A stretch of DNA of 25,736 bases, from IMG/VR virus record IMGVR_UViG_3300025131_000372, positions 1 through 25,736 of that record. One strand, given 5' to 3'. This DNA comes from a virus. Position numbers and translations under genes: made by a program. Below the pieces are notes generated by a model. That model ran no database searches. It saw only the letters and a program-made list of their open reading frames with translations, and was not told where the DNA came from. Shown here in pieces: positions 1-13,311 of the stretch (its first letter is position 1; the number at the start of each line of letters is the position of its first letter).

Positions 1-707
1 TCATTGCTAGACCGTAAAAGACCAAGAACGAAATCAGCATCATTCATCCCATCAAGTGACTTAATGAATGAGCCTAGTTTCTCAGCCTTCACAGGCAATG
101 CACCGAATTCAGCTTTTGCGATGGCGACACATTCAGAGAGCCGCTTTTCGTCTTCGGCTTTCTTGATCTTGGCTTCAAGCTCTTCGGCTTTTGTGATTGC
201 TGATTTGTTAGATTTCCAAAGTTGCTCGACCATCGAGCGCATATTCTTAGGCAAGGCAGCAAGGCGCTTTTGCATTTCCTCTTCATCCTCTTCTTCATCC
301 TCTTGCTTTTCTGCCTCTTCCTCTTCATCAGCTTCGGGGGTCTCACCTTCGGGGGCGGCTTCCTCTGCTACTTCGGGCTTCTCTTCTTCTTCTTCTTCTT
401 CTTGCTTGGAAAAGCCACCGAGGGCCATAAGGTCTTTTAGAAGATTCGCTGGAACCTCTTCTTGAAAAGCGCTTAGGATTTGAACAGCGCTCTTGATTCC
501 TTCAACCGCTTGCTCGCTCAGTTCTGCCTTCTTTAGCCGCTCAATGATGGCCTCACCCTTTTCAAAGGGGGCCGCCAGAATTGCTTCAATCACATCCATT
601 TCTTTTTTCTCCGATTTTTTGATTGCAAAAGTGCGCTTGTTCGCGCCTTTATCAACGAGACTAACCTCAACGGTTTCAAGTTCTCGCAGTTCAGTTTTTT
701 TCGACAT
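1..707 (-). CDS. Probable prohead scaffold / XkdF-associated head protein (3' end cut by window edge)
   Basis: The frame is open from an ATG at 707 to the left edge (235 full codons), so the C-terminus is missing. The N-terminus has VSLVDKGANKR (about residues 15-25), a signature I associate with N-termini of XkdF-like prohead protease and scaffold proteins. The middle (about residues 100-145) is an extremely acidic Glu-rich stretch with poly-GAA runs, followed by a Lys/Glu-rich, coiled-coil-prone helix. This composition fits a scaffold that is cleaved and expelled during head maturation. The start overlaps the end of the upstream protease gene by 17 nt, suggesting translational coupling. The acidic stretch makes the opposite strand look open (Ser-rich); that is a shadow. 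I infer a scaffold role from the motif and position only; it could also be a capsid fusion whose coat domain lies beyond the edge. Confidence 0.72.
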   Translation of the reverse strand, partial: MSKKTELRELETVEVSLVDKGANKRTFAIKKSEKKEMDVIEAILAAPFEKGEAIIERLKKAELSEQAVEGIKSAVQILSAFQEEVPANLLKDLMALGGFSKQEEEEEEEKPEVAEEAAPEGETPEADEEEEAEKQEDEEEDEEEMQKRLAALPKNMRSMVEQLWKSNKSAITKAEELEAKIKKAEDEKRLSECVAIAKAEFGALPVKAEKLGSFIKSLDGMNDADFVLGLLRSSN

Positions 708-1707
708 TCTCAGCCTCTATGAATTCCACTTGGGGAGCATCACTAGCAGCTAGCTCGCTCCTCTTGCCAAAGCCGCCGATTGAATACGCATTCAACTCGC
801 CGCTTTTGACTGCCGCCCATTCTTCTTTTCCTAGTCGCGTGCCAAGAATCCAGGTTCCCGAATGCACAACATCAGAGCCGAAGGCGGCTTTGTTCGCTTT
901 GTGGGGCTTGCCAGCCATCGCGGCCTTGTAATCTTCCTTGGATGGGTAAGGCACAAGCCATGACTCAACCGGGACCGCGTTTGCCATTTCCGAATGCTGT
1001 AGACCCACGATACGGCTTTTCGCCATCCAACCATGAGCGGTTTTTTCCACTTCGGCAGGAGGTATCAAATCCCCGTGGGCGTCTACTTTATAAGGATCAA
1101 GCACCACACCATAAACGATGCGCTTCTCATCATCGGCTTTTGCAATCTCAACCGTGAGTGCCCCATTGGACTCGGGGCGCTTATCCGCATCTTGACATTG
1201 TAAAGGGGGTTTAGTCAATAAGTTCCTAATGGCCTTAGCCTTCCGCGCTACCTCGCCACTGTCGCCGAGCTTTCTAATCGCTGTCGGATGGGGCATTGAT
1301 ACCGTTGCGCGGTCACCTAAACCCGCTTTAGCTCCCTTGCCTAAAGCAACTAGGGTTGTATTCCCTACTGACTGAGGCAGCTCATCAAGGGTGAACACGC
1401 CCACATCACTCCTAGAGAGGTCCAGAGCTTTAAGATAAACATCGTTAAACGTAACACCATCGGCACCGACCAAGAGTTTCCCTCTTGCGGCCTCTAGCTC
1501 GTTAGACTCAGAAACAACGAAAACAACTTCTAGCCCGTCGATGCTCTTCGCTTTGGATTGTTCAGGGGCCTTCTTTACTAGCCCCCCTTTTCCTCCTGCG
1601 TAACCTCTAGCGGCTTGGTGAATCATGGCCCAAGCCCACCCAGGGAGTTGCTGTTTTGCAAGCGTTAGCGCTTGCTCCAAATAATCACGGCTTTTCTCTT
1701 TAGACAT
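691..1707 (-). CDS. XkdF-like prohead serine protease with N-terminal UDG-fold-like domain
   Basis: 338 aa. The C-terminal half (about residues 190-320) matches the XkdF/Peptidase_S78_2 prohead protease family: RIVYGVVLDPYKVDAHGD at 196-213, a candidate catalytic His in LQHSE (H238), GTWILGTRL at 284-292 and the candidate nucleophile Ser in AYSIGG (S309). It is expected to cleave scaffold and capsid precursors inside the procapsid. The N-terminal half is unusual: residues 58-165 read like a uracil-DNA-glycosylase-type fold, with RGKLLVGADG (75-84), LVALGKGA (119-126) and MPHPTAIRK (138-146), the last resembling the HPS motif. The usual GEAPG catalytic motif is replaced by VSESN, so glycosylase activity is unlikely. 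The gene overlaps the portal gene by 8 nt and the downstream scaffold-like gene by 17 nt. The protease call is firm; the UDG-fold reading is inference. Confidence 0.85.
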   Translation of the reverse strand: MSKEKSRDYLEQALTLAKQQLPGWAWAMIHQAARGYAGGKGGLVKKAPEQSKAKSIDGLEVVFVVSESNELEAARGKLLVGADGVTFNDVYLKALDLSRSDVGVFTLDELPQSVGNTTLVALGKGAKAGLGDRATVSMPHPTAIRKLGDSGEVARKAKAIRNLLTKPPLQCQDADKRPESNGALTVEIAKADDEKRIVYGVVLDPYKVDAHGDLIPPAEVEKTAHGWMAKSRIVGLQHSEMANAVPVESWLVPYPSKEDYKAAMAGKPHKANKAAFGSDVVHSGTWILGTRLGKEEWAAVKSGELNAYSIGGFGKRSELAASDAPQVEFIEAENVEKN

Positions 1708-3067
1708 TTTGAGCCTCTCCCTCTTCTTCTAGCGGCAACTCTGCCTCGTCTTGAAATTCTTCTGATTCTCTACCAGTTGAAACGTCGGGCATGGGCATAT
1801 TCCCAAAATCCCGAACCCATTTCTCAAGCTCATCGTCCGGTGTAAGAACCCCAGCTGAAGAAAGAGTGCCAATAGCCCCCGCCAATTCATTCAAATCAGG
1901 GGTTTCGATATCCTCGAAAGCTAGCCTTGGGAAATATTCAGGGGGTACGCCGTTGTATTTAAGCAGCTTAGGTATTGCGAATTGGGTGAACACTTCAGAG
2001 ATTTGTTGCAAATAACTGCCAATTGCTTGGCTGAAAAGGTGCGTTTTATTACTACTAAGGGAAAAGCTCCCAACGCTATCCATCCCCAGAAGAACAAACT
2101 CCCCGAGAACGCTCATGGCGATTCTTGATTCGTAGCGTTTGACAATCTCGTTCACGTCAATAGGGCGCCTTCCGCCGCTTGCTAGAAGTGAGAACTTGAA
2201 GCCGCTCGGGTTCCCGTCAACATCAGTCTCAGCGGGGAATACTACGCCCTCGAATTCGTTTCGTTTAACCTTTCGGACCATTTCAAAGATATTGGCTAGA
2301 GATGCTTTTTGTGCAGAGCTAGCGCTTGGACTTAACATCTCAAGAGGGACGTGAGCGACTGGCAAGCCTGCTAAATCACGCTCGATCCCGATGGCCTCGA
2401 TCTCCTGAATTCGCTTAAGGTAGAACCACGAGCGATAAGCATTTCTAAGAATGCTCCGGCCTTCGGGGTTTGCCTTGTGCGTTTCGGTTCTGAATAATAG
2501 CGCTTTCTCAATCGGAATATATCTCAGTCGATAATCTGGCGGGGGTTGTTGCCACATGCCAGCCGGGGAGCCGTCCTCGTCCAGCTCCCACTTGCAAAGG
2601 GTTTCCTGAGCCCGGATTGAAATCTTCCTCCAACCGATTTTACCGTCGTTATGCTTAGAGCGCTCTGAGCCATCTTTTGCGTCGGGTCCGCGTCTATACT
2701 TGTAGACACATTCAAAATAAGCCCAGCCAAATGTCAACATCGACAAGATTTCAGAAAGCAGGTCATGCCATGAGTGGGCCATGTCTTGACGACATTCCTC
2801 CACAAAATCAGCCGCCGCTTTATGTTCTGGGGTATCGCCGCTAGGTTCTATTCTCCACTCAGTTTGTCTAACAAGGGTCTTGATTGCATAAAGGATTGCA
2901 CCGACAACCGGGTCGTTGTCGCGCATCTCCTGGAATGCCTTGATTGACTTCTCACCTTTGAGTTGTCTTAACCATTCCTCGTCAACCTTGCCCCCGTATT
3001 CCTTTAAGCCCGGTTTCCCAAGCGTGTCTAAAATTCCGAATTCTTCTAGCTCTTCATTCTCTGGCAT
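1700..3067 (-). CDS. Portal protein (DUF935 / Mu gp29-like)
   Basis: 455 aa, a normal size for a portal. The dodecameric portal forms the head vertex through which DNA is packaged and to which the tail joins. Family-like features are the N-terminal segment around MRDNDPVVGAILYAIKTLV, then WRIEP and ADFVEE, matching the DUF935/Mu gp29 pattern of 'DP.v.a.l......v....W.vep...'. A long central region with KRIQEIEAIGIERDLAGLP and a C-terminal acidic tail (DEAELPLEEEGE) follow. Position between the gpF-like head protein and the prohead protease is the canonical head-gene order. The start ATG follows AAAGGCGAG. It lies 12 nt after the gpF-like gene and overlaps the protease gene by 8 nt. The exact portal subfamily is uncertain. 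Confidence 0.85.
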   Translation of the reverse strand: MPENEELEEFGILDTLGKPGLKEYGGKVDEEWLRQLKGEKSIKAFQEMRDNDPVVGAILYAIKTLVRQTEWRIEPSGDTPEHKAAADFVEECRQDMAHSWHDLLSEILSMLTFGWAYFECVYKYRRGPDAKDGSERSKHNDGKIGWRKISIRAQETLCKWELDEDGSPAGMWQQPPPDYRLRYIPIEKALLFRTETHKANPEGRSILRNAYRSWFYLKRIQEIEAIGIERDLAGLPVAHVPLEMLSPSASSAQKASLANIFEMVRKVKRNEFEGVVFPAETDVDGNPSGFKFSLLASGGRRPIDVNEIVKRYESRIAMSVLGEFVLLGMDSVGSFSLSSNKTHLFSQAIGSYLQQISEVFTQFAIPKLLKYNGVPPEYFPRLAFEDIETPDLNELAGAIGTLSSAGVLTPDDELEKWVRDFGNMPMPDVSTGRESEEFQDEAELPLEEEGEAQNV

Positions 3068-3079
3068 AACTCGCCTTTC

Positions 3080-3913
3080 TTAAGTTTCCCCATTGGGGCC
3101 GCGTCTAGTTGCTACAACTCGACATCTGCAGTTTGCTATTTGATGTATTGGGCCAATTTTAGGGGAGGACATCGGGGTTCCATCGGGGAGAATAAACTTA
3201 GCATCAATCGGGACGGTGACGCCGTTCATTTTCCAGTGTTTCCGGTTTCCTGATTTCTTATCATCTATGACCGCAACCCATTTTTTCCATCTGATTCCCG
3301 CTGATTTCATACCCTCAACCCGACCTTGTGCCCTGGCATTCCCTATCTCTGTTCGAGCTATTAACTCAGCTCTCCCGTGAACAGTCCGCACCAAGCCCAC
3401 ACCGCCGGGAATTTCTTCTAGCCTTTCCCTTCCCTCTTGCTCTGGTTTAATGAAAAAATTCGTTCTGATTCTTCTGGCAACTTCGCCCATGCTCGGGGTT
3501 GGCTTTTCTCCGAGCCATTTAGACATCGCTCCCGATAACGACCTTTTAAACTCCCAAGAGATGCTCCGAGTTATCCCAGTGACAAGAATCTCTTTCTCGC
3601 GAATATAAGCCTCAACTCTTCTTTGCGGAATTCTAAAGGCCTTATTCTCTTCCTTGCCTGCGTCCTCCATTTGCCTTAGGCCGTGACGCTGCAGAATTGC
3701 TAGGAGCTGTCTTTGCTTATCAGTCAAAACTGCTTTGGTGATTCGATTCCTGACGCCCTTACCTCTTAAATCAGAGACTGCCTCTCTGATAAGCTCATCC
3801 CCGTAGGATGCCAACCAGCTAGAAATATCATTGGTAGCGGCCTTGGCTCTAGCGTCTTCTTTGCCTAAGAGTCTTCTCTCTCTTCTGCTTACTCGTCTTT
3901 TTCGTTGGGGCAT
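3080..3913 (-). CDS. Mu gpF / SPP1 gp7-like minor head morphogenesis protein
   Basis: 277 aa. The C-terminal third carries the Phage_Mu_F pattern: RAELIARTEIGNARAQGR (about 185-202), then WVAVIDDKKSGNRKHWKMNG (with the conserved H in KHW), GTPMSSPKIGP and the closing NCRCRV motif (about 262-267). In this family the protein binds the portal, enters the procapsid in few copies and helps head assembly or DNA delivery. The N-terminus is very basic (RKRRVSRRERR) and mostly helical. The start ATG overlaps the stop codon of the large terminase by one base (TAATG), so translation is probably coupled. The gene order terminase, gpF-like, portal differs from the more common terminase, portal, gpF order. 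Confidence 0.85.
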   Translation of the reverse strand: MPQRKRRVSRRERRLLGKEDARAKAATNDISSWLASYGDELIREAVSDLRGKGVRNRITKAVLTDKQRQLLAILQRHGLRQMEDAGKEENKAFRIPQRRVEAYIREKEILVTGITRSISWEFKRSLSGAMSKWLGEKPTPSMGEVARRIRTNFFIKPEQEGRERLEEIPGGVGLVRTVHGRAELIARTEIGNARAQGRVEGMKSAGIRWKKWVAVIDDKKSGNRKHWKMNGVTVPIDAKFILPDGTPMSSPKIGPIHQIANCRCRVVATRRGPNGET

Positions 3914-5256
3914 TAAAAGAACACCTGAGGGGAATAGTTCTCACCTGGGTTTATAGTTATCTCCCGGCATGACTTTGAATCAAGTTCAGAGATTGCCCAA
4001 ACCAAAGCATCCATACGGTCGGGTGAATCTGAATTGCTACCGGGGAGAAAATTACACATTTGATCTTCAAGGTCACTAAATACCCCAACATGATGAACCC
4101 GGCCTTGCTCATATCTTGCGGCGACCGGTTCCGACCTTGAAAATTTCCCGCGAGATGCATGAACGTTCTTGGTCGCGGCTTGGGGATTTATTCCGTTGAT
4201 AATTGTTCGCCAAGTATCGCCGCCCTGATTTGCTTCAAAAACGATACGGTCTGCCATGTGCTCCTGGTAAGCCATTATTGCTTTCCGACACACCGCATCA
4301 GGAGAGCCCCTAAAAGAATAATCGGCAAGGACATAAAAATCCTTTGCAGCTCTTCCGACGACGACAACCCCGCTCTCATCGCTTGTTGCCTTGCTCGTGG
4401 TTGCCGGGTCCACTGCAACCACTATCCTATCAAGAGGAGGGTGGTCCTTAACTCTTGCAGCCTCTATTAAATTTCTCGTGAATAGAGCGCCGGGGATTTC
4501 ATCCAGAAGCTCACCTTCTAGCTCTTGTCTTCCTAAGTGCGTGTCACCGTATCGGTCAAAAATAGTTTGGATAAATACCGGGGATAAATTGCTCTTATTT
4601 TCCATCGTCGAACCGGTGGTCGTGATGGTGGACTCTAGCTCGGCGAGGTCCCTAAGGAACCTCCTCGGCCTCGGTGTCGTTGTTACAATCACGCGGGGAT
4701 GAATCCCAAGCCGGAGTCCGAAAAGGAGCATATCCCAGGCCTCGGTATATCTCCAAGAAGCGAGTTCATCACACCATGCAAAATCACATTGAGGCCCCCG
4801 GAGCTGGTCAGGTTGTTCACTTGAAAAGGTCGTAGCCGTTGCCCCGTTGGGCCAAGTCAACCGGCGCTTAGATGGTTCATATTCGGGGCGGAAGTCTGGA
4901 GGGGATACGGACAAGATTCCGCTCTCGCCCTCAACCATGACATCCCGAACATCAGAAGCCGCACGGGCCACAAGATGCACCCTCTTGGCTACTCCAGAAC
5001 GCACCGCATCAATCACGCTCTCTGCACCTGTTCTAGTCTTGCCCCATCCTCGTCCAGTTTGAATCAACCAGCAATTCCAATCCCCCACCGGCAGAATTTG
5101 TTCAGGTCTTGCCTTAAAGCACCATTCATTTTCAAGCGCTTCTAGCTCATCGGGGGCCATCTCATTAACTATCTTCATCCTCTGCAATTCGTTTAGCCTG
5201 CACAGCCAGCTTGTCCAAGACTCGTTCTCTCGCATCCTTGACTTCAACTCTTGCAT
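3913..5256 (-). CDS. Terminase large subunit (ATPase/nuclease)
   Basis: 447 aa packaging motor of the Terminase_6-like group. The ATPase domain has Walker A TGRGWGKTR (67-75) and Walker B DFAWCDE (158-164), with the coupling-type motif VTTTPRPRRF near 191-200. The RNase H-like nuclease domain has the acidic residues in AVDPATT (D283), FEANQGGD (E341) and DSPDRMDALVWA (410-421). It pumps DNA into the procapsid and cuts concatemers. I keep the long start at 5256 (92-nt overlap with the small subunit) because SWTSWL before LEALENEWCFKARPEQ matches the usual N-terminus of this family, and GGAGG lies 9 nt upstream. ATGs at 5235 and 5178 are alternatives. The downstream gene starts on its stop codon. 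Confidence 0.93.
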   Translation of the reverse strand: MQELKSRMRENESWTSWLCRLNELQRMKIVNEMAPDELEALENEWCFKARPEQILPVGDWNCWLIQTGRGWGKTRTGAESVIDAVRSGVAKRVHLVARAASDVRDVMVEGESGILSVSPPDFRPEYEPSKRRLTWPNGATATTFSSEQPDQLRGPQCDFAWCDELASWRYTEAWDMLLFGLRLGIHPRVIVTTTPRPRRFLRDLAELESTITTTGSTMENKSNLSPVFIQTIFDRYGDTHLGRQELEGELLDEIPGALFTRNLIEAARVKDHPPLDRIVVAVDPATTSKATSDESGVVVVGRAAKDFYVLADYSFRGSPDAVCRKAIMAYQEHMADRIVFEANQGGDTWRTIINGINPQAATKNVHASRGKFSRSEPVAARYEQGRVHHVGVFSDLEDQMCNFLPGSNSDSPDRMDALVWAISELDSKSCREITINPGENYSPQVFF

Positions 5257-5620
5257 CTATGGTTGCCTCCACCTCTGCTTTAACCTTTGGGATAAACATG
5301 GCCCGACGCCGCTCTAGCTTCCATGCCGCCGCTTGCCACTGGCCACCCTGGGCCGCTTTCTCGATTATTGCCAACCACCTTTGAGTTGCTAAGCCTTCAG
5401 CTTCTTTTATGCGCTCCCGGAATTTCTGATAGACTGCCGCGTCCTTGCGGTCTGAATCAGCCCATTCCATCCATTTGTAGAAGGTCGTTTCCCCTATACC
5501 AGCACACCCACAAGCGTCTTTTTTGGGGCACCCTAGCTTGATTGCCTGGACAAAAGCGTCCTCGATTTCTTTGTTTAGCTTAACCTTTCGGCCTACTCTT
5601 TTCTTCGGACTCTTAGCCAT
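5165..5620 (-). CDS. Terminase small subunit
   Basis: 151 aa. It lies directly upstream of the large subunit, the usual place. After a basic N-terminus, residues about 17-60 form a helix-turn-helix typical of small terminases (CPKKDACGCAGIGETTFYKWM, split here as CPKKDACGCAG and IGETTFYKWM), followed by a helical oligomerisation region with WLAIIEKAAQGGQWQAAAW and LERRR. Small subunits recognise the packaging site and hand DNA to the large subunit. The start overlaps the methyltransferase end by 8 nt and its end overlaps the large subunit by 92 nt. The C-terminal segment (VEATIDARVEVKDARERVLDKL) is probably the portal- or motor-facing tail; this last point is inference. Confidence 0.88.
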   Translation of the reverse strand: MAKSPKKRVGRKVKLNKEIEDAFVQAIKLGCPKKDACGCAGIGETTFYKWMEWADSDRKDAAVYQKFRERIKEAEGLATQRWLAIIEKAAQGGQWQAAAWKLERRRAMFIPKVKAEVEATIDARVEVKDARERVLDKLAVQAKRIAEDEDS

Positions 5621-6818
5621 TCACCAGCTCGGCAGTCTTCCCCGTGAAGTCTTCCCAACGCTTGATCACCACATCGCAATAGACCGGATCGATCTCCATC
5701 CCGTAACAGTCTCGATCCAGTTGCTCACACGCGATCAGGGTGGAGCCGCTACCCATGAACAGATCCGCAACCAACTGACCCGCGCCACTGCTATGGCTGA
5801 TCGCATGGGCGGGAACATGAACGGGCTTTTGTGTTGGGTGTAAATCGTTCTTTGGATTAGGGGCCAAACCCCAAACGCTCAAGGCGTGACCTTCGGGCGG
5901 AAAATTAAAGGTGTGTTTCCCTCGGGTGGCATAACAGATCATTTCGGCGCACCATGTCCAATGCCTCTTAGTCAAGGAGGGCATCGGGTTAGGTTTCGAC
6001 CAAACGCACCAACTAAAATGATCGGCCCATTGGTCCATCCACTCCCAAATGCTCCCCGCCAGATGGTGAGAGGTGCAAACATAAACAGAACAGTTTTCAG
6101 CCATAGCCAAGGCGAACGACTCCTCGACGCTTTGAAAACTAAAGTCCCGATCCCACTCACTCCTCATTAGCGCGGCGTGTGTCTCCCTCACCGAAGCGGC
6201 GACCCCCTTGTTTTTCTCCGCTATGTTATAAGGCGGATCAGTGAATACCAGATCGGCCCGTTGCCCGTTCATGAGCGCAGCCACATCCTCGGCCTTGGTC
6301 GCATCTCCGCACATAAGCCGGTGATCTCCCATCGCCCAGATCTGGCCAGGCTGGACCGTTGGATCCTCGGGTGCTTCGGGTACTTCGTCGGGGTCCGTTT
6401 GCCCCTCATTGATCCCGGTCGTGTCATCGACAAGCGCCGCAAGTTCATCAGAGCTAAACCCGGTCGAAGTCAAAAGCGCCTCATCTTCGATTTGAAGAGC
6501 CGAGAGAATTTCAGCAAGTGCGCCATCATCCCACTCGGCGAGGTCAGCCGTGCGGTTGTCTGCTATTGCATAGGCCGTCGCATCTGAACCCTCAAGCTCT
6601 GTTCTAACGACGTTGAGTGTTCTCCAGCCCAAAGCTTTGGCCGCTGCAAGTGTACCATTGCCAGCAACCACGATACCCTCTGAATTAATGACAATCGGCT
6701 TTTGCTGGCCAAACTTGGCAAGGCTCCCTTTGATAGCATCGAGGTTCTTATTGTCGTGCGTTCTTACGTTCGCCGGGTCAAAGATTAGTTTATCAATGTG
6801 TACAGATTCGATTTGCAT
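5613..6818 (-). CDS. DNA methyltransferase (beta-class N4/N6) with N-terminal ParB-like domain
   Basis: 401 aa, two domains. Residues 2-90 are a ParB/Srx-like nuclease-fold domain: the start IESVHIDKLIFDPANVRTH, then VVAGNGTLAAAKALGW in the place of the ParB 'GERR' box. Residues 155-395 are an amino-methyltransferase with catalytic TDPPYNI (193-199), HPTQKPV (327-333) and the AdoMet-binding DLFMGSGST (352-360). Catalytic motif before AdoMet motif is the beta-class order. It would methylate adenine N6 or cytosine N4 in phage DNA, probably guarding against host restriction or marking DNA for packaging. No cognate restriction gene is seen. Such ParB-methyltransferase fusions commonly sit beside phage terminases. 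It overlaps the small terminase gene by 8 nt. The ribosome site is weak (GGGGGC 4 nt before ATG). Confidence 0.92.
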   Translation of the reverse strand: MQIESVHIDKLIFDPANVRTHDNKNLDAIKGSLAKFGQQKPIVINSEGIVVAGNGTLAAAKALGWRTLNVVRTELEGSDATAYAIADNRTADLAEWDDGALAEILSALQIEDEALLTSTGFSSDELAALVDDTTGINEGQTDPDEVPEAPEDPTVQPGQIWAMGDHRLMCGDATKAEDVAALMNGQRADLVFTDPPYNIAEKNKGVAASVRETHAALMRSEWDRDFSFQSVEESFALAMAENCSVYVCTSHHLAGSIWEWMDQWADHFSWCVWSKPNPMPSLTKRHWTWCAEMICYATRGKHTFNFPPEGHALSVWGLAPNPKNDLHPTQKPVHVPAHAISHSSGAGQLVADLFMGSGSTLIACEQLDRDCYGMEIDPVYCDVVIKRWEDFTGKTAELVNG

Positions 6819-8192: not shown

Positions 8193-9947
8193 ATGGGCCA
8201 TGCGACGGGGCCAAGGTCGGGGAATTCAGAAAGAAAAATAAGAAACAACCTTCGGGGGCTCAACCACATCCCTGAAGATGATTGGGTTGAACACGAGCTA
8301 CTCGACGACCCAGGATTCAATTGTCCCCCGCAATGGGGGCAGCTTGAGAAGGAAACCGGGCCAGCTCACCCAGTCCCAGCGCTTGGGGATTGGAGCAAAG
8401 ATGGTGCTCTTCTTATTCAACTCAAAGCATTCTTCTCCGAATATATCAACGAGACCGATAATAGCGGCAATCCTTGCCGGATGGTCAAACACAACGATGA
8501 GGTTGACTTGTGGGGGGTTATCAAAGCCGGGTGGAAAAGACAGAACGGGGCTGAGCCAGTCATCACCGAGGGGCAGATGTGGCTCTACCAGAGGAATATT
8601 GGAATCTGGGCAAAAGCAGACACACCGGAGAGGCTTTATTTGTTCAGGCTCCTGCATGGCTTAAGCGCTGGCGATGGCTACCAAGATTTTGATGGCAAAA
8701 CGATTATGATGAACAAGAGAAATCTCTTGGCCCTCGATTTCATGGCGATGCATGACCACGCAATTATCCATAAGAAAAGCCCTTTTGCTGATGAAGTCCC
8801 TGGAGTTGTGCTTCTTACAAATTTACAGCCTGAGAGAAACCCGGCTTATTCAGTCAAGCAAACCCTTATTCACATGCCCGACAAGGATGGCCACGTCCAT
8901 TACATGGCTCCCGGTTTTGAAGAATTCAAACGCCACACGTATAACGAGCCGACGCCACGCCCCAAGCTCTCGGAAGTTGTTAATCTTAGATCTGAAAAAA
9001 ACAACCCGGCGGCCTGGCACCATTACATGAAATCACTCTTTGCGGGGGATGAAGATGCAAAGGCAAAGGTGCAAACGATTGAAGAGCACTTGGGTGCCTC
9101 CCTATGCGGGCTTGCTACTAAATTTCAGCGCGTGGTGGTTCTAGAAGGCTCAGGGGCCAACGGGAAATCGCTCTTCATGGAAATAGCCCGCCGCCTATTT
9201 AATGCTGAAGATGTGACCGTGACGAGTCCCGACACTTGGGGCCGTTTTGGAACAGTTGACCTTATGGGGAAGAAAATCAATCTAGTCACTGAGCTAGATG
9301 AGGGTTCAGTCTTTAAAAGTGATACCTTCAAAAGTGCAGTTACTGGGGATTTAATACGCGGGGAGTACAAGGGAGGGGCAAGTTTCTCGTTCAGGCCGGT
9401 GGCCGGGCATATTCTATCATGCAACTCTTTACCACCAGCAGCGGACCAGTCCCCCGGATTTTATCGGAGATTCATCTTGGTAAAGTTTGGGCGGCGATGG
9501 AGCCACTCAGACCCCGGATATCGAGAAGCGGACCAAATCCTAGATTCTATTATGGAAGTAAGGCACGAGATAGTTCAGCGCCTTGTTTGGTCTTGTGCTG
9601 AGTTGATGAAGCGGGGGCAATATCCGAACCTTTCAAGTCACAATTCAGCAATGAAAGACTGGGCTCAGAATTCTGATTCAGTGACTGACTTTGCGAATTC
9701 ATGCCTTAAGAAAGATGATGAAGGAGACTTTATTAAGGGAATCGAAAAGCAACCAGACTTACATGGGGCCTTTCTGGTGTTTACCAAGAACACCGGGAGG
9801 AAGGGCATGGGGAATCGAAATTTCTACAGAAGGCTTGCAGCGATTGAAGGGGTAGACAAAAGAGAAAAGCACTACAACGGGAGTGCCTGTTTTAATGTCA
9901 AGCTAAACTATCAGGCGGACTGGTTAGAGGGCTCAAAGGATATATAA
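8193..9947 (+). CDS. D5/P4-type SF3 replicative helicase
   Basis: 584 aa. The C-terminal half is a superfamily 3 helicase of the D5/P4 alpha type: Walker A EGSGANGKS (318-326), Walker B INLVTELDE (362-370), motif C HILSCN (406-411) and the arginine finger in GFYRRF (422-427). It would unwind phage DNA at the origin as a hexamer. Residues 130-300 fit the D5_N region seen before such helicases. I do not see a clear archaeo-eukaryotic primase motif or a Toprim in the first 130 residues, so priming may depend on the host or on another protein. GGGAGGG lies 7 nt before the ATG at 8193; an ATG five bases earlier is out of frame. It directly follows the iteron-rich region, as expected if it acts there. 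Confidence 0.9.
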   Translation: MGHATGPRSGNSERKIRNNLRGLNHIPEDDWVEHELLDDPGFNCPPQWGQLEKETGPAHPVPALGDWSKDGALLIQLKAFFSEYINETDNSGNPCRMVKHNDEVDLWGVIKAGWKRQNGAEPVITEGQMWLYQRNIGIWAKADTPERLYLFRLLHGLSAGDGYQDFDGKTIMMNKRNLLALDFMAMHDHAIIHKKSPFADEVPGVVLLTNLQPERNPAYSVKQTLIHMPDKDGHVHYMAPGFEEFKRHTYNEPTPRPKLSEVVNLRSEKNNPAAWHHYMKSLFAGDEDAKAKVQTIEEHLGASLCGLATKFQRVVVLEGSGANGKSLFMEIARRLFNAEDVTVTSPDTWGRFGTVDLMGKKINLVTELDEGSVFKSDTFKSAVTGDLIRGEYKGGASFSFRPVAGHILSCNSLPPAADQSPGFYRRFILVKFGRRWSHSDPGYREADQILDSIMEVRHEIVQRLVWSCAELMKRGQYPNLSSHNSAMKDWAQNSDSVTDFANSCLKKDDEGDFIKGIEKQPDLHGAFLVFTKNTGRKGMGNRNFYRRLAAIEGVDKREKHYNGSACFNVKLNYQADWLEGSKDI

Positions 9948-9955
9948 CCAAGGGA

Positions 9956-9988
9956 GGCAGCGGGGCCGTGATTAGCAGCCCCGCTGCC
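9956..9988 (+). terminator. Strong hairpin after the helicase, terminator-like
   Basis: GGCAGCGGGGC (9956-9966) and GCCCCGCTGCC (9978-9988) form a perfect 11-bp stem with an 11-nt loop, 8 nt after the helicase stop. Only GTTTCAG follows, so it lacks a full U-tract. It may attenuate read-through or protect an mRNA 3' end. Confidence 0.6.
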
Positions 9989-9996
9989 GTTTCAGC

Positions 9997-10010
9997 AACT
10001 CAACCAAAAG
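9997..10010 (+). promoter_or_regulatory. Start-associated leader core AACTCAACCAAAAG
   Basis: Exact AACTCAACC core at 9997-10005. Here the core-to-ATG distance is 35 nt, outside the two usual classes (12-14 and 19-20 nt). A GTG at 10014 is only 8 nt away. The gene at 10041 has its own GGAGG. Confidence 0.5.
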
Positions 10011-10040
10011 AAGGTGAAACAGGCATTAGCCGGAGGCACA

Positions 10041-10604
10041 ATGACTAAGAAAAGACAGAGCATAGAATTTGATCGCGGTCAAGAAACCGAACAAATAGCA
10101 CGATTCAGAAACGCATTGAGATTTGCAGGGCACGCACTCAACTGCGATGAAGGCTCCTATTGTCGGTGCGGTTTCGGGGAGTTAGAGAAGGCGCTAGCTC
10201 GAGCACAACGAGAAAACAAACCACCGACCGAGGATGCTTTTTATTTGTTTCGAGAATGCGCCGCAGAGATAACAGGGCACAGAGGGGAATCATGTGCTGA
10301 CAGGCGGTGTAAGTGCGGCGCAAAAAAAGCACTGAGAAAGCTAAACATCAAGAGCCCTGACGCAGACCAATTCGTTTCGTACTGGTGCTCTCGGTGTTCA
10401 AGGGAGCACCATCAAGAGGACCTTGAATCATTCTGGAAAGAAAAAGACGCTTTAAACGTCCCTTTGGATTCAACCATTGAAGCGCTAAAAGAATCAAATA
10501 GAGAAAAGTGTAGGATGGGCAACTGCCCCACTAAAAACTGTGCTGGGCCTGTTAGACGGTCAATTTTATCATTAAAAAGAATGATTCCGGATGTCCCATT
10601 TTAG
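10041..10604 (+). CDS. Cys-rich, probably zinc-binding protein of unknown function
   Basis: 187 aa. I use the ATG at 10041 because GGAGG lies 6 nt upstream (10031-10035 region); an in-frame GTG at 10014 has no separate site. Four Cys clusters are spaced along the chain: CDEGSYCRCG, CADRRCKCG, WCSRCSREHH and CRMGNCPTKNC. The first two each contain a closing C-x-C-G, suggesting repeated zinc-binding knuckles; the third, C-x2-C with H-H, resembles a treble-clef half-site. This suggests a nucleic-acid-binding or structural zinc protein, but I recognise no family. It is the first gene after the helicase and its terminator-like hairpin. Confidence 0.65.
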   Translation: MTKKRQSIEFDRGQETEQIARFRNALRFAGHALNCDEGSYCRCGFGELEKALARAQRENKPPTEDAFYLFRECAAEITGHRGESCADRRCKCGAKKALRKLNIKSPDADQFVSYWCSRCSREHHQEDLESFWKEKDALNVPLDSTIEALKESNREKCRMGNCPTKNCAGPVRRSILSLKRMIPDVPF

Positions 10605-10635
10605 GAATATTGTCAGGGATGAATAATAATAAACA

Positions 10636-10652
10636 AACTCAACCAAAGGATT
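10636..10652 (+). promoter_or_regulatory. Start-associated leader AACTCAACCAAAGGATT
   Basis: Full 17-nt form before the ATG at 10659 of the nuclease gene. AAAGGA serves as the Shine-Dalgarno sequence; 14 nt separate the AACTCAACC core from the ATG. Identical over 17 nt to the copy at 11858-11874. Confidence 0.7.
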
Positions 10653-10658
10653 AAAACC

Positions 10659-11813
10659 ATGAAATCATTATTTATCAGGTGCTCTTCTCTCAAAGGGGTT
10701 CTTAGCTGCCCCTCTTACGGGCTAACGGATAAACCCTGGAACCCCGAAAGCGTATATAGCCAACAAGGTTCGGCCGGACACCTGGGGGCTCAGTATTACA
10801 TTGATCCTCTTCTCGGCATGGCGGGAGAGGTCCCTGATTTCCCAGAGGTCCAACTCAAGTACCCGCTAATTGATATTAAGGACCTCGAAATCTGCTTCTG
10901 GCTTTTTAAACGAATGTGGGACGAACACCTTGCGCCATTTATGGGGGAAAACATTAGTTGTGAGGTTAAGATGAAGGCTCGTCTTGGTGTTGTTGAAATA
11001 GACGGAGAAGAGACTGAGGTTTTTCTAACTGGCCACGCTGACATTATAGCCCAAACGGCCATGGATTTAATCGTCTATGATTGGAAGTTTGGAAGAGCCC
11101 TTGGCGCTTCTCACTTTTCACAAACTGCAGGTTATGCAGCTCTAGCGGTGACTGTGTACGGGTGGCCAGAGTCCGGAGTGGTAACCGCTGGTGAGGCCTA
11201 CCCCCGCTTTGGGAAATGGAAAGACCACACTCAGAAAATCGATAAGGTTTATCTGGGACAGTTCAAAGAAACGGTTCTTGAGACTTTAAAGCATAGGGGC
11301 AAAGTAAGAAACCCATCACCCGACGGTTGCAAGTTTTGCTCAGCCCGGCTTGACTGCCCAGAATACCCGCGAATGTTTCAGGATAGTTTTATCGCTGTGA
11401 AGGGGATGGTAGACGGAGATTCTAGCGTTGTTGACCCTGAAGAACTGGCTCATCTTCATTCAGCGTTTAAAACCCTCGAATATGCTTGCAGCTCTTTCAA
11501 AAAGCTATTTGCAACAACCCTCGAAACAGCCAACGCTGTAGGGAAAGACAACGCAATAGAAGGTTTTTATCTTCAAGAGAAAACTAGGCGAAGTGTAGAG
11601 CCCCAAGCGGCATGGCCTCACCTTGCTAAAGTTCTTAATCAGGATGAAATTGCATCAGTTCTTTCTATGCCGCTAGCCAAGGTGAAAAGCGCGGTTATGA
11701 GCAAGACACCAGAAGGAATGAAGAAAAAAGAATTTTGGGCAGAGTTTGAGAAAGCCCTCTATGAATCAACCGCTATCATCGAAAGCTCTTCTTTGACCGT
11801 AGCAAAAAAATAA
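10659..11813 (+). CDS. Cas4/RecB-like PD-(D/E)XK nuclease (DUF2800-like)
   Basis: 384 aa. N-terminal CSSLKGVLSCPSY (8-20) and GSAGHLGAQYY (37-47) match the opening of RecB/Cas4-like phage exonucleases. The catalytic core is GHADII (125-130, candidate D127) and LIVYDWKFGRALG (137-149, with the D-x-K pair D141/K143). A C-terminal cluster CKFCSARLDCPEYP gives Cys 224, 227 and 233; with Cys17 this could hold a 4Fe-4S cluster as in Cas4/AddB. The likely role is double-strand DNA end resection to produce single strands for the RecT annealase encoded two genes downstream, in a lambda Exo/Beta-like pair. The start follows the full leader AACTCAACCAAAGGATT. Confidence 0.82.
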   Translation: MKSLFIRCSSLKGVLSCPSYGLTDKPWNPESVYSQQGSAGHLGAQYYIDPLLGMAGEVPDFPEVQLKYPLIDIKDLEICFWLFKRMWDEHLAPFMGENISCEVKMKARLGVVEIDGEETEVFLTGHADIIAQTAMDLIVYDWKFGRALGASHFSQTAGYAALAVTVYGWPESGVVTAGEAYPRFGKWKDHTQKIDKVYLGQFKETVLETLKHRGKVRNPSPDGCKFCSARLDCPEYPRMFQDSFIAVKGMVDGDSSVVDPEELAHLHSAFKTLEYACSSFKKLFATTLETANAVGKDNAIEGFYLQEKTRRSVEPQAAWPHLAKVLNQDEIASVLSMPLAKVKSAVMSKTPEGMKKKEFWAEFEKALYESTAIIESSSLTVAKK

Positions 11814-11819
11814 GAAAAC

Positions 11820-11846
11820 TTTACACGCTCTGGGGTTGTATATACT
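11820..11846 (+). promoter_or_regulatory. Possible promoter with TGTATATAC element
   Basis: TTTACA (11820-11825) and TATACT (11841-11846) are separated by 15 nt, slightly short for a sigma70 promoter. The TGTATATAC at 11837-11845 recurs as the palindrome TGTATATACA twice before the gene at 15226, so this may be an operator or a shared early-promoter element. Confidence 0.4.
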
Positions 11847-11857
11847 TTGGAGTCACT

Positions 11858-11874
11858 AACTCAACCAAAGGATT
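11858..11874 (+). promoter_or_regulatory. Start-associated leader AACTCAACCAAAGGATT
   Basis: Exact 17-nt copy of the leader at 10636-10652. 12 nt lie between the AACTCAACC core and the ATG at 11879. Confidence 0.7.
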
Positions 11875-11878
11875 TGAA

Positions 11879-12244
11879 ATGATTAAAACCACAGAAGACA
11901 TTCTAGGTGGCGGTATCGCCACAAAAACAACTATCAGCACAGGGTATTTCACCCCAGGCGGTGGAAGGTACCACCTCATCTGGGGGCACGTTCCAGACAT
12001 TAACGACCCGGACGGGCCTCTTAAGTTCATCGGTACATGGATGAACAGAGGCGGCGGCGGTGTCACAGTTATGCACCAAATTGGGACATTCTGTCATTGG
12101 ACTTACGTTGATGAAAAAATGGGCATTGGAGAAGAGAACGCAAAGGCAATCGCCCACTTTATCAACTCAGTAAACTTTTTTGACTACAAGCCAGAGAACT
12201 ACCTGGCCGATTTGCCACGAGGCGTCAAAGGGGCTCTGTCATGA
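11879..12244 (+). CDS. Protein of unknown function in the recombination cluster
   Basis: 121 aa. The start follows the full leader element with AAAGGA 6-7 nt before ATG. The sequence has glycine-rich turns (GGGIATKT, TPGGGRYH, RGGGGVTV) and aromatic residues, suggesting a small beta-rich fold; no known motif is evident. It sits between the nuclease and RecT, where phages often keep single-stranded DNA-binding or accessory recombination proteins, but it lacks a recognisable OB-fold SSB acidic tail. The stop overlaps the start of the next small gene (ATGA). Function unknown. Confidence 0.65.
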   Translation: MIKTTEDILGGGIATKTTISTGYFTPGGGRYHLIWGHVPDINDPDGPLKFIGTWMNRGGGGVTVMHQIGTFCHWTYVDEKMGIGEENAKAIAHFINSVNFFDYKPENYLADLPRGVKGALS

Positions 12245-12405
12245 GATTAAAAACGGGGGATAGCGTTACAATTGACCACCAGGTTTTTGGCGCAAAGGTG
12301 ATAGCTCAAAGCAAAGACGGAAAAAGAATCAAGGTAAAATACCACTGCCCTCGAGAGGGGCAGATTGTTAAATGTGTACAACTCAACCAAATTACAAAGG
12401 ATTAA
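12241..12405 (+). CDS. 54-aa small basic protein, KOW/SH3-like in composition
   Basis: 54 aa, starting at an ATG that overlaps the previous stop (ATGA) and ending 3 nt before the RecT start. The chain (MRLKTGDSVTIDHQVFGAKV, then a basic KDGKRIKVKYH segment) looks like a small SH3/KOW-type beta barrel, with 'GDxV' near the start and a 'V.....G..I.VKY' strand pair. Its last codons (QLNQITKD) are written over the leader element for RecT, so the coding region and the regulatory element share DNA. That the element stays intact although translated supports both readings. Function unknown. Confidence 0.6.
   Translation: MRLKTGDSVTIDHQVFGAKVIAQSKDGKRIKVKYHCPREGQIVKCVQLNQITKD
12380..12403 (+). promoter_or_regulatory. 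Start-associated leader with 7-nt insertion, before RecT
   Basis: AACTCAACC (12380-12388), AAATTAC, then AAAGGATT (12396-12403). Compared with the 17-nt form it has a 7-nt insertion between core and Shine-Dalgarno part, giving a 20-nt core-to-ATG gap. It lies inside the end of the 54-aa gene. Confidence 0.65.
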
Positions 12406-12408
12406 AAA

Positions 12409-13311
12409 ATGGGTAATTTATCAGAAGCTCAGATGGCGATAGTAACGCTAATGGATAGAAAGTTTGAGGTGCTAAAAAAAGCACTTCCGGCGAACGTCAA
12501 CCCGACACGATTTAAACAAGCCGCAATCATGGCCGCAACGGAAAACCCTAAAATCGTTTTAGAATGCACGCCCGTCTCAGTATTCACAGCCATCTTGCAA
12601 GCGGCCCAGCTTGGTTACAATCTCGGCTCTGCTTATAACGAGGCATATTTAATCCCATATAGGGACAAGCGCCGAGGCGTTACAGAGTGCAAACTAACTC
12701 CCGGCTATGTTGGAATGAGGCGAGCCCTAATTCGTTCCGGAGCTGCTGATGTAGTTCACGCGTCTATCGTGCATCAAAACGACATTTGCACAATCTCTCA
12801 CCACCCACCAAGCGTTAAACATGAGATTGACTTAAAAGGGGATAGGGGGGAATGGCTGGGGGTTCTTGCCTGTGCTTATCGCCTTAATGACGGGGTTCAC
12901 CAGCTCATTGACTTTGAGTATTTGAGCGAAGAAAGAATCCTCGCAGCTAAGGCCCAGGCGAGGGATAAATCGCTATGGAACAAGCACCCCGAACAATTCT
13001 GGAAAAAGACCGGAGTGCGGGCATTGGTTAAACTCTTTCCCCTGGTCAACGATGAACTCGTCACAATGGTTTCGTGGGACAATGAGAGCAACATCCCTTT
13101 GGAAGAGCAAGCCCCCACAATCCACCAGGACACCGCTACAGCGGTCGCGGCTGTAAAGGAGCTACCACAAGCGGAAGTTCTACCACCGCCACCAGAGAGC
13201 CCACAGGCAGCTGAGGCGAAGAAAAAGACCAAGCCGCGCAAAAAGCGCACAACTAAGAAACAAAAAGAAGACAACGGGCTTAATGTGCCTGTGCCTTTCG
13301 GGTTTGCGTGA
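12409..13311 (+). CDS. recT: RecT-family single-strand annealing protein
   Basis: 300 aa. Typical RecT features: PTRFKQAAIMAATENPKIVLECTPVSVFTAILQAAQLGYNLG at about 30-70 (shown here for its conserved spacing: 'F....l......P.l..c...S...a...aa.lGl'), AYLIPYRDK and the KLTPGYVGMRRALIRSG segment, then WNKHPEQFWKKTGVRALVKLFP before residue 215. RecT proteins coat ssDNA and anneal complementary strands for phage recombination and concatemer formation; the partner exonuclease is probably the Cas4/RecB-like gene upstream. The C-terminal 80 residues are low-complexity, Pro- then Lys-rich (KKKTKPRKKRTTKKQKED), an unstructured tail. The start follows the leader variant with the long spacing; the end overlaps the next gene (TGATG). 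Confidence 0.9.
   Translation: MGNLSEAQMAIVTLMDRKFEVLKKALPANVNPTRFKQAAIMAATENPKIVLECTPVSVFTAILQAAQLGYNLGSAYNEAYLIPYRDKRRGVTECKLTPGYVGMRRALIRSGAADVVHASIVHQNDICTISHHPPSVKHEIDLKGDRGEWLGVLACAYRLNDGVHQLIDFEYLSEERILAAKAQARDKSLWNKHPEQFWKKTGVRALVKLFPLVNDELVTMVSWDNESNIPLEEQAPTIHQDTATAVAAVKELPQAEVLPPPPESPQAAEAKKKTKPRKKRTTKKQKEDNGLNVPVPFGFA

Follow-up and report, generated by a model that had tools for sequence, protein, structure and literature searches.

A degenerate uracil-DNA glycosylase domain fused to a head protease looks like a remnant of larger protease polyproteins with DNA-repair domains

Among described systems, the polyvalent proteins of phages and conjugative elements (Iyer et al., 2017; PMC5512222) come closest to the protein reported here, and in the main text of that paper their assemblin-like peptidases are always C-terminal. 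The likeness lies in the several unrelated enzyme domains per chain, the virion-gene context and the C-terminal assemblin-like peptidase, but a term search of the main text found no mention of a uracil-DNA glycosylase (UDG), any glycosylase or a DNA ligase. Their architecture is that of the large relatives described below, whereas our protein keeps two domains, one of which is probably inactive. Arthrobacter phage Ottawa gp87 also carries a C-terminal XkdF domain behind an enzyme domain (2'-5' RNA ligase/2H), but matches to UDG, DNA ligase and the LigD-type phosphoesterase are absent from it. XkdF is further treated in a passage of PMC7824862, the subject of which is the head peptidases of jumbo phages. 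The fusion of a UDG or a DNA ligase to a head protease is polyvalent-protein-like, and no earlier description of it was found in the literature, with subscription papers mostly outside the scope of the search.

Family 4 UDGs (PF03167; PDB entries 1ui1 and 4zby) share with the domain studied here a descent that can be followed through the large relatives, the predicted fold and the HP of motif 3, and differ from it in that its GxxPG motif 1 is replaced and its motif 2 is missing. Escherichia coli Pol III psi (HolD; PDB entries 3sxu_B and 1em8_B) resembles it in structure only, as closely as the UDGs do, and offers an analogy for a UDG-like fold serving as a connector, although in another setting than a head protease: as part of PMC3290774 describes, the psi N-terminus tethers the chi–psi pair to the clamp loader. 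The LigD 3'-phosphoesterase (PF13298; PDB entries 3p43 and 3n9b) has its fold and a His/His/Asp set in common with a domain of the large relatives that is absent from our protein, and belongs to an NHEJ ligase setting rather than to a head-protease polyprotein.

The window, that is the whole stretch of viral DNA that was analysed (IMG/VR record IMGVR_UViG_3300025131_000372, 25,736 nucleotides), contains a gene with the following parts.

691–1707, minus strand: whole gene, 338 amino acids, comprising an N-terminal helical segment, a degenerate UDG domain and an XkdF head protease
1588–1707, minus strand: conserved helical segment at the N-terminus with AGGK as its last residues (residues 1–40), shared with the large relatives
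1213–1539, minus strand: degenerate UDG domain (residues 57–165), from hhalign, VIA-align and dN/dS
1501–1515, minus strand: VSESN (residues 65–69) at the place of motif 1, from alignments
1372–1377, minus strand: point at which about 27 residues including motif 2 are absent (residues 111/112 by MAFFT)
1249–1290, minus strand: HPTAIRKLGDSGEV, the retained motif-3 loop (residues 140–153)
757–1149, minus strand: XkdF/S78_2 protease domain (residues 187–317), from PF14550

The PF14550 match at residues 187–317 has an E-value of 2.5e-22 and a score of 79.7 bits (cut-off 24). The protease motifs read LQH, HSGTW and YSIGG, and we take His238, His282 and Ser309 to be the candidate catalytic residues. 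The protein joins a degenerate UDG domain to an XkdF/S78_2 head protease that looks intact. A preliminary description, made from the sequence of the window, had proposed this open reading frame, the XkdF-like protease and an order of motifs typical of the UDG superfamily; the PF14550 match agrees with it, and VSESN, RGKLLVGADG (residues 75–84), LVALGKGA (119–126) and MPHPTAIRK (138–146) were located in that order. In the AF2 model the N-terminal segment forms helices 3–20 and 23–36, predicted with low confidence. An assembly or frame artefact was ruled out, as the related loci L002, L003 and L004 keep the frame and have dN values far lower than dS.

The protease fusion gene sits in a portal-to-capsid block of head genes.

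3–707, minus strand: acidic open reading frame downstream, cut at the window end, in the same position as L003:5950–6897 (phrog_13547, unknown function)
1700–3067, minus strand: portal protein, the upstream neighbour (PF06074, E 2.8e-35; phrog_113, E 5.5e-78)
3080–3913, minus strand: MuF-like head morphogenesis protein (phrog_2468, E 7.4e-15; PF04233, E 1.2e-5, below cut-off)
3913–5256, minus strand: terminase large subunit (PF03237, E 3.6e-25; PF17289, E 3.8e-16)

In L003 the gene is flanked by the portal protein (phrog_113) upstream and the major capsid protein (phrog_1005) downstream, and in L005 by a MuF-like head morphogenesis protein upstream and phrog_1005 downstream. From its position and composition, the acidic reading frame at 3–707 is probably the scaffold. 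Just upstream of the terminase (5613–6818, minus strand) lies a fusion of a ParB-like domain and a DNA methyltransferase (phrog_498, E 2.2e-106, and several ParB-like families), and replication and recombination genes occupy the opposite strand at 8193–13311.

8193–9947, plus strand: primase/helicase-like protein
10659–11813, plus strand: exonuclease (phrog_69)
12409–13311, plus strand: RecT-like annealing protein

The window protein alone could not settle whether its N-terminal half is a UDG, since this half matches nothing notable: there is no Pfam match at E 10, and the best match among PDB sequences (E 0.8) is an unrelated nanobody. A profile of four window-type domains likewise gave zero matches in the PDB at E 10. 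Homology to PF03167 is absent when sought directly and is found by way of the relatives. The large relatives L005, L006 and L007 match the UDG family PF03167 with E-values of 1.4e-20, 6.8e-20 and 8e-21, and in the PDB the L005 domain comes closest to the family 4 UDG 4zbx (E 4e-11). In these three proteins the stretch reads VGASPGR..E.ARREP..GP.GETFNDVYLKPLGL, then LPHPSAVRRFGD. Aligned with hhalign, the four window-type and the three large-type domains give a probability of 99.6, an E-value of 6e-25, which is generous because both profiles are shallow, and 42% identity over 109 columns, which is not inflated in this way. The resemblance is above chance, because the PF03167-positive domains of the relatives align with the window domain, and the same matches and alignment rule out coincidence as well as an unrelated Rossmann-like fold. 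By sequence comparison, which decides the matter where fold alone does not, the window domain is a descendant of a UDG. That it might be a spare copy beside another UDG was ruled out as well, a PF03167 search of the record, which is possibly a fragment, having given 0 matches.

The AF2 model of the window protein was built with 13 alignment rows, and its input alignment contained UDG relatives. Its pLDDT is 68 overall and about 51–81 along the domain, with a pTM of 0.45. In VIA-align the window domain superposes on the family 4 UDG 1ui1 with Z = 9.1 (107 residues, 2.5 Å) and on psi (3sxu_B) with Z = 9.2 (98 residues, 2.8 Å); 4zby follows with 9.0, UdgX entries with 7.3–7.9 and MUG with 6.8. 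Foldseek assigns probabilities of 0.98 to 4zbx and 0.99 to 4zby, but with E-values of 0.03–0.05. The similarity to the UDG superfamily that had been anticipated for a predicted structure is therefore present, in a model of middling confidence, and since psi and UDG tie in Z-score the fold alone cannot choose between them.

A scan of IMG/VR with the complete protein found relatives at seven loci, and one with the domain alone at six. The short-type relatives are 96% (L002), 76% (L003), 64% (L004) and 67% (L008, over the part present) identical to the window protein. L005, L006 and L007 are proteins of at least 1124 amino acids in which PF03167 is combined with the ATP-dependent DNA ligase family PF01068 and with PF14550. 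A scan with the combined alignment reached 24 viral loci, and the large viral relatives span about 480–1660 amino acids, with UDG domains that match PF03167 at E-values down to 2e-25. Among cellular contigs, one locus (L019, a Bacillota MAG) came from the scan with the UDG alignment and zero confirmed relatives from that with the polyprotein alignment. Pfam was run on 18 proteins, 17 from the viral and cellular scans together with L015: PF14550 is found in 18/18 and PF03167 in 17/18, the one miss, L040, being cut near the HP motif. In a phage collection, tblastn of the window protein matched 239 records, zero of which cover 80% of it; among the 40 matches listed, only residues from 149 on are covered and no annotated phage has a UDG-like domain. 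The best BFVD model, A0A516MCN4 (892 amino acids), aligns over 280 columns with 37% identity and may be a fusion of the UDG–protease type.

The ATP-dependent DNA ligase is joined to the UDG domain and the protease in 15 relatives, and the protease is always C-terminal. Besides the ligase, most of these proteins contain a LigD-type 3'-phosphoesterase, and a methyltransferase is often present too. The contents of the middle vary and include the ligase, Methyltransf_11, a Dam-type methyltransferase (L025) and an AAA_33 kinase-like domain (L022). Between the UDG domain and the protease most members have a further domain, in whose 19-row alignment His42, His43, His67, Gly68 and Asp69 are invariant and the QHH and HGD columns as a whole invariant or nearly so; LigD_N matches this domain in 17/19 at E-values up to 0.1 (best 7.6e-5), below the curated cut-off where bits are given. 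Its AF2 model (pLDDT 91.6) superposes on LigD 3p43 with Z = 13.5 over 123 residues at 2.4 Å, and the next unrelated chain reaches 3.5. Weak Pfam matches (0.035 and 0.0083) suggest that perhaps a nucleotidyltransferase-like domain precedes the ligase. At the N-terminus the pattern LPxW...[AS]GG[RK] is seen in 20/26 rows; of the remaining six, five are truncated at their 5' end and L038 is without it. Used as a query, the N-terminal segment retrieved 28 loci and added eight non-redundant proteins, with PF14550 in 8/8, PF03167 in 5/8 at E ≤ 0.01 (three of those over the cut-off) and a match to the UDG profile built in this analysis in 8/8. With the N-terminal segment and PF14550 shared and the middle domains variable, the family changes in its middle and stays constant at both ends.

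The window domain looks like a remnant of a UDG from larger protease polyproteins that carry a DNA ligase and repair domains. A degenerate UDG-superfamily domain fused to a head protease, as put forward in the preliminary description, is upheld by sequence intermediates, predicted structure and selection, and the Pfam counts above confirm that the domain is still fused in relatives. The idea that a DNA-handling fold had been recruited to the protease holds for the UDG fold and fails for a lone recruitment, the domain appearing to be what is left of a canonical-looking UDG.

Motif 1 of an active UDG is a GxxPG-type loop. Large relatives read GASPG here, and the window reads VSESN in the alignments, as the earlier suggestion of a degenerate catalytic motif had it. 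In the 32-row alignment used for the motif counts, V-x-[ED]-x-N replaces GASPG in nine sequences (window, L002, L003, L004, L008, L048, L049, L053 and L057). Motif 1 and HP are 75 residues apart in the window clade compared with 102 in most others, 27 fewer. The motif 2 region (N..P; REP..E in relatives), about 27 residues, is missing from the window, and the remaining members of the nine are shortened at the same place in the alignment. Motif 3 (HP[ST]) is retained as HPT at residues 140–142; HPTAIRKLGDSGEV is identical across the window, L002, L003 and L004, and the eight full members of the subfamily all share Pro139-His140-Pro141, Ala143, Arg145, Gly148–Glu152, Arg155 and Lys156. Val65, Glu67, Asn69 and Asp83 are fixed in these eight and uncommon elsewhere, and Asp replaces Glu67 in L008. 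Bootstrapping of a protease-part tree separates these eight members from the other rows in 80% of trees, which is weak support (80/42). Judging from these motifs, UDG catalysis is expected to have been lost in the window domain. The relatives make the passage from an enzyme fold to a conserved, apparently non-enzymatic domain readable through intermediates (GASPG, GASPS, EASLD and V-x-E-x-N).

Other ligase-less members read GASPS, GASPN, EASLD, TAAPS, AASPG or GTKQD at motif 1, and L022 retains GANPG. Motif 1 is intact in 12/15 ligase-bearing versus 1/17 ligase-less rows (Fisher 2.9e-5, with many rows kin). Because of this kinship independent pairs are the fairer test of a link between ligase and motif: the 4 pairs on starred branches fall 3.1 the same way and 0.1 the opposite way, which is not significant, and an earlier, smaller set (10/12 versus 1/12 intact, 5 pairs) was likewise not significant. 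The counts leave out sequences that are cut (L039 and L040, before motif 1; L046; L065; L058 and L059, which both contain the start of L057; and L060, a near-copy of L062), duplicates (L036, with the same protein as L025; L050, identical to L048; and L051, one difference from L049) and L061 and L063, whose frame ends inside the UDG domain. L002 and L003 (338 and 358 amino acids) and L008 count as ligase-less with their own proteins outside the Pfam scans; L008 is cut, yet its N-terminal segment leads directly to the UDG-like domain. The contigs of the ligase-less relatives L003, L004, L015, L022, L028, L032, L034, L037 and L038, possibly fragments, contain an ATP-dependent ligase in 0/9 cases.

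Head proteases of the XkdF class act inside the prohead. The reading towards which we lean is that the window protein is a small member of a head-protease polyprotein family, in which large members would carry repair enzymes as cargo and the window member a non-catalytic adaptor with a UDG fold. The middle of the large members would comprise an ATP-dependent DNA ligase, a family 4-like UDG and a LigD-type 3'-phosphoesterase, often a methyltransferase and perhaps a nucleotidyltransferase. The C-terminal protease would bring the fused N-terminal part into the prohead and later free it, perhaps at the variable linkers. As the protease would cut them free inside the prohead, the repair enzymes would remain in the head and might enter the host along with the DNA. 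The intact-looking UDG and ligase in one protein may mean that some phages load a DNA-repair kit into their heads. The window subfamily would have lost UDG catalysis along with the ligase and the phosphoesterase, with a rebuilt V-x-[ED]-x-N loop and with the motif-3 loop and last helix kept. By analogy with the psi connector, the UDG fold of the window would most likely serve the protease in the prohead as a nucleic-acid- or protein-binding adaptor. Binding of DNA, the portal or the scaffold is possible; the domain as a whole carries a net charge of −1, so that DNA binding is not obvious, and the motif-3 end (residues 134–165) is basic (+4). More tentatively, some tailed phages might load into their heads a polyprotein of UDG, ligase and phosphoesterase, often with a methyltransferase and perhaps with a nucleotidyltransferase, to mend the entering DNA, the leftover UDG of the window, with its rebuilt V-x-[ED]-x-N site, having become a new working part of the protease. 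Repair enzymes ahead of a prohead-located protease would have a direct and testable route into the head, which bears on whether phages bring repair enzymes with their DNA and on how large enzymes enter heads.

Selection on the window domain bears on whether it could be a passive leftover of the lost enzymes, with no function beyond that of a spacer. Both catalytic motifs are lost, and other ligase-less relatives are damaged in different ways (GASPS, GASPN, EASLD, TAAPS and GTKQD), as would suit such a spacer. Against this, the window and L002 differ in the UDG-like domain by 47 synonymous and six non-synonymous changes (dN/dS 0.025), compared with a dN/dS of 0.051 in the protease, 0.016 in the N-terminal segment and 0.080 in linker 166–183; in most wider comparisons synonymous sites are saturated. 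This value indicates that the domain is maintained rather than decaying, and about as strictly kept as the protease. Val65, Glu67, Asn69 and Asp83 are fixed while linkers vary freely: linker 166–183 is 39% and 22% identical to L003 and L004, respectively, the UDG-like domain 81% and 65%. We regard a passive spacer as highly improbable. It is distinctly unlikely, too, that the rebuilt V-x-[ED]-x-N loop forms a new active site, which would make the domain an enzyme with a changed reaction instead of an adaptor. The invariant acidic and amide residues at the old site (Glu67, or Asp in L008, and Asn69) across widely differing sequences would fit such a site, but the loss of motif 2 together with its helix should leave the pocket open.

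A different objection concerns the large members, whose fusion might couple expression only, the enzymes acting in the producing cell or being trimmed off outside the head. The polyproteins are known here from genes of uncultivated viruses alone, and a ligase with a phosphoesterase-like part occurs in ANMV-1 without a protease match, both of which leave room for this explanation. The fusion of ligase, UDG and protease in 15 rows and the action of XkdF-class proteases inside the prohead speak against it. Packaging has, moreover, been proposed for polyvalent proteins with C-terminal assemblin-like peptidases in the main text of PMC5512222. We consider it unlikely that the polyproteins are not head cargo.

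The ligase of the archaeal virus ANMV-1 (L017:3200–5797, 866 amino acids; PF01068, E 5.9e-17) has a LigD-phosphoesterase-like part by alignment and resembles the middle of the large polyproteins, with UDG and protease matches both absent. At L061:5959–8319 and L063:5995–8352 the polyprotein frames end within the UDG domain just past motif 1, through a frameshift, a sequencing error or decay. L065:4838–6835 joins the shared N-terminal segment to GNAT acetyltransferase and zinc-ribbon matches, perhaps as other cargo, and is cut at its 3' end. Two BFVD matches of the window model from uncultured phages, A0A6J5PIT0 and A0A6J5M6S8, bear the annotations zeta-toxin-domain protein and ChaB protein, which suggests a wide range of N-terminal domains on XkdF proteases.

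Public records name XkdF-fusion proteins incorrectly or for a single part of the chain. Ottawa gp87 is called 'RNA ligase' after one part of its chain. The 150-residue XkdF protease of Pseudomonas phage VCM (L041:2426–2875, phrog_1530) is called 'DNA methyltransferase', which seems wrong as Pfam gives only PF14550 and a sub-threshold DUF1643. Finally, a domain of the pattern RGGTEVGVARARDLSN...FARH...W.LWGGDAG recurs at about residues 94–216 of L007 and 60–160 of L004 and in L053 and L057, and it matches genes of the portal/capsid region of Roseobacter phages and a 'putative DNA-binding protein' of phage PaBG.
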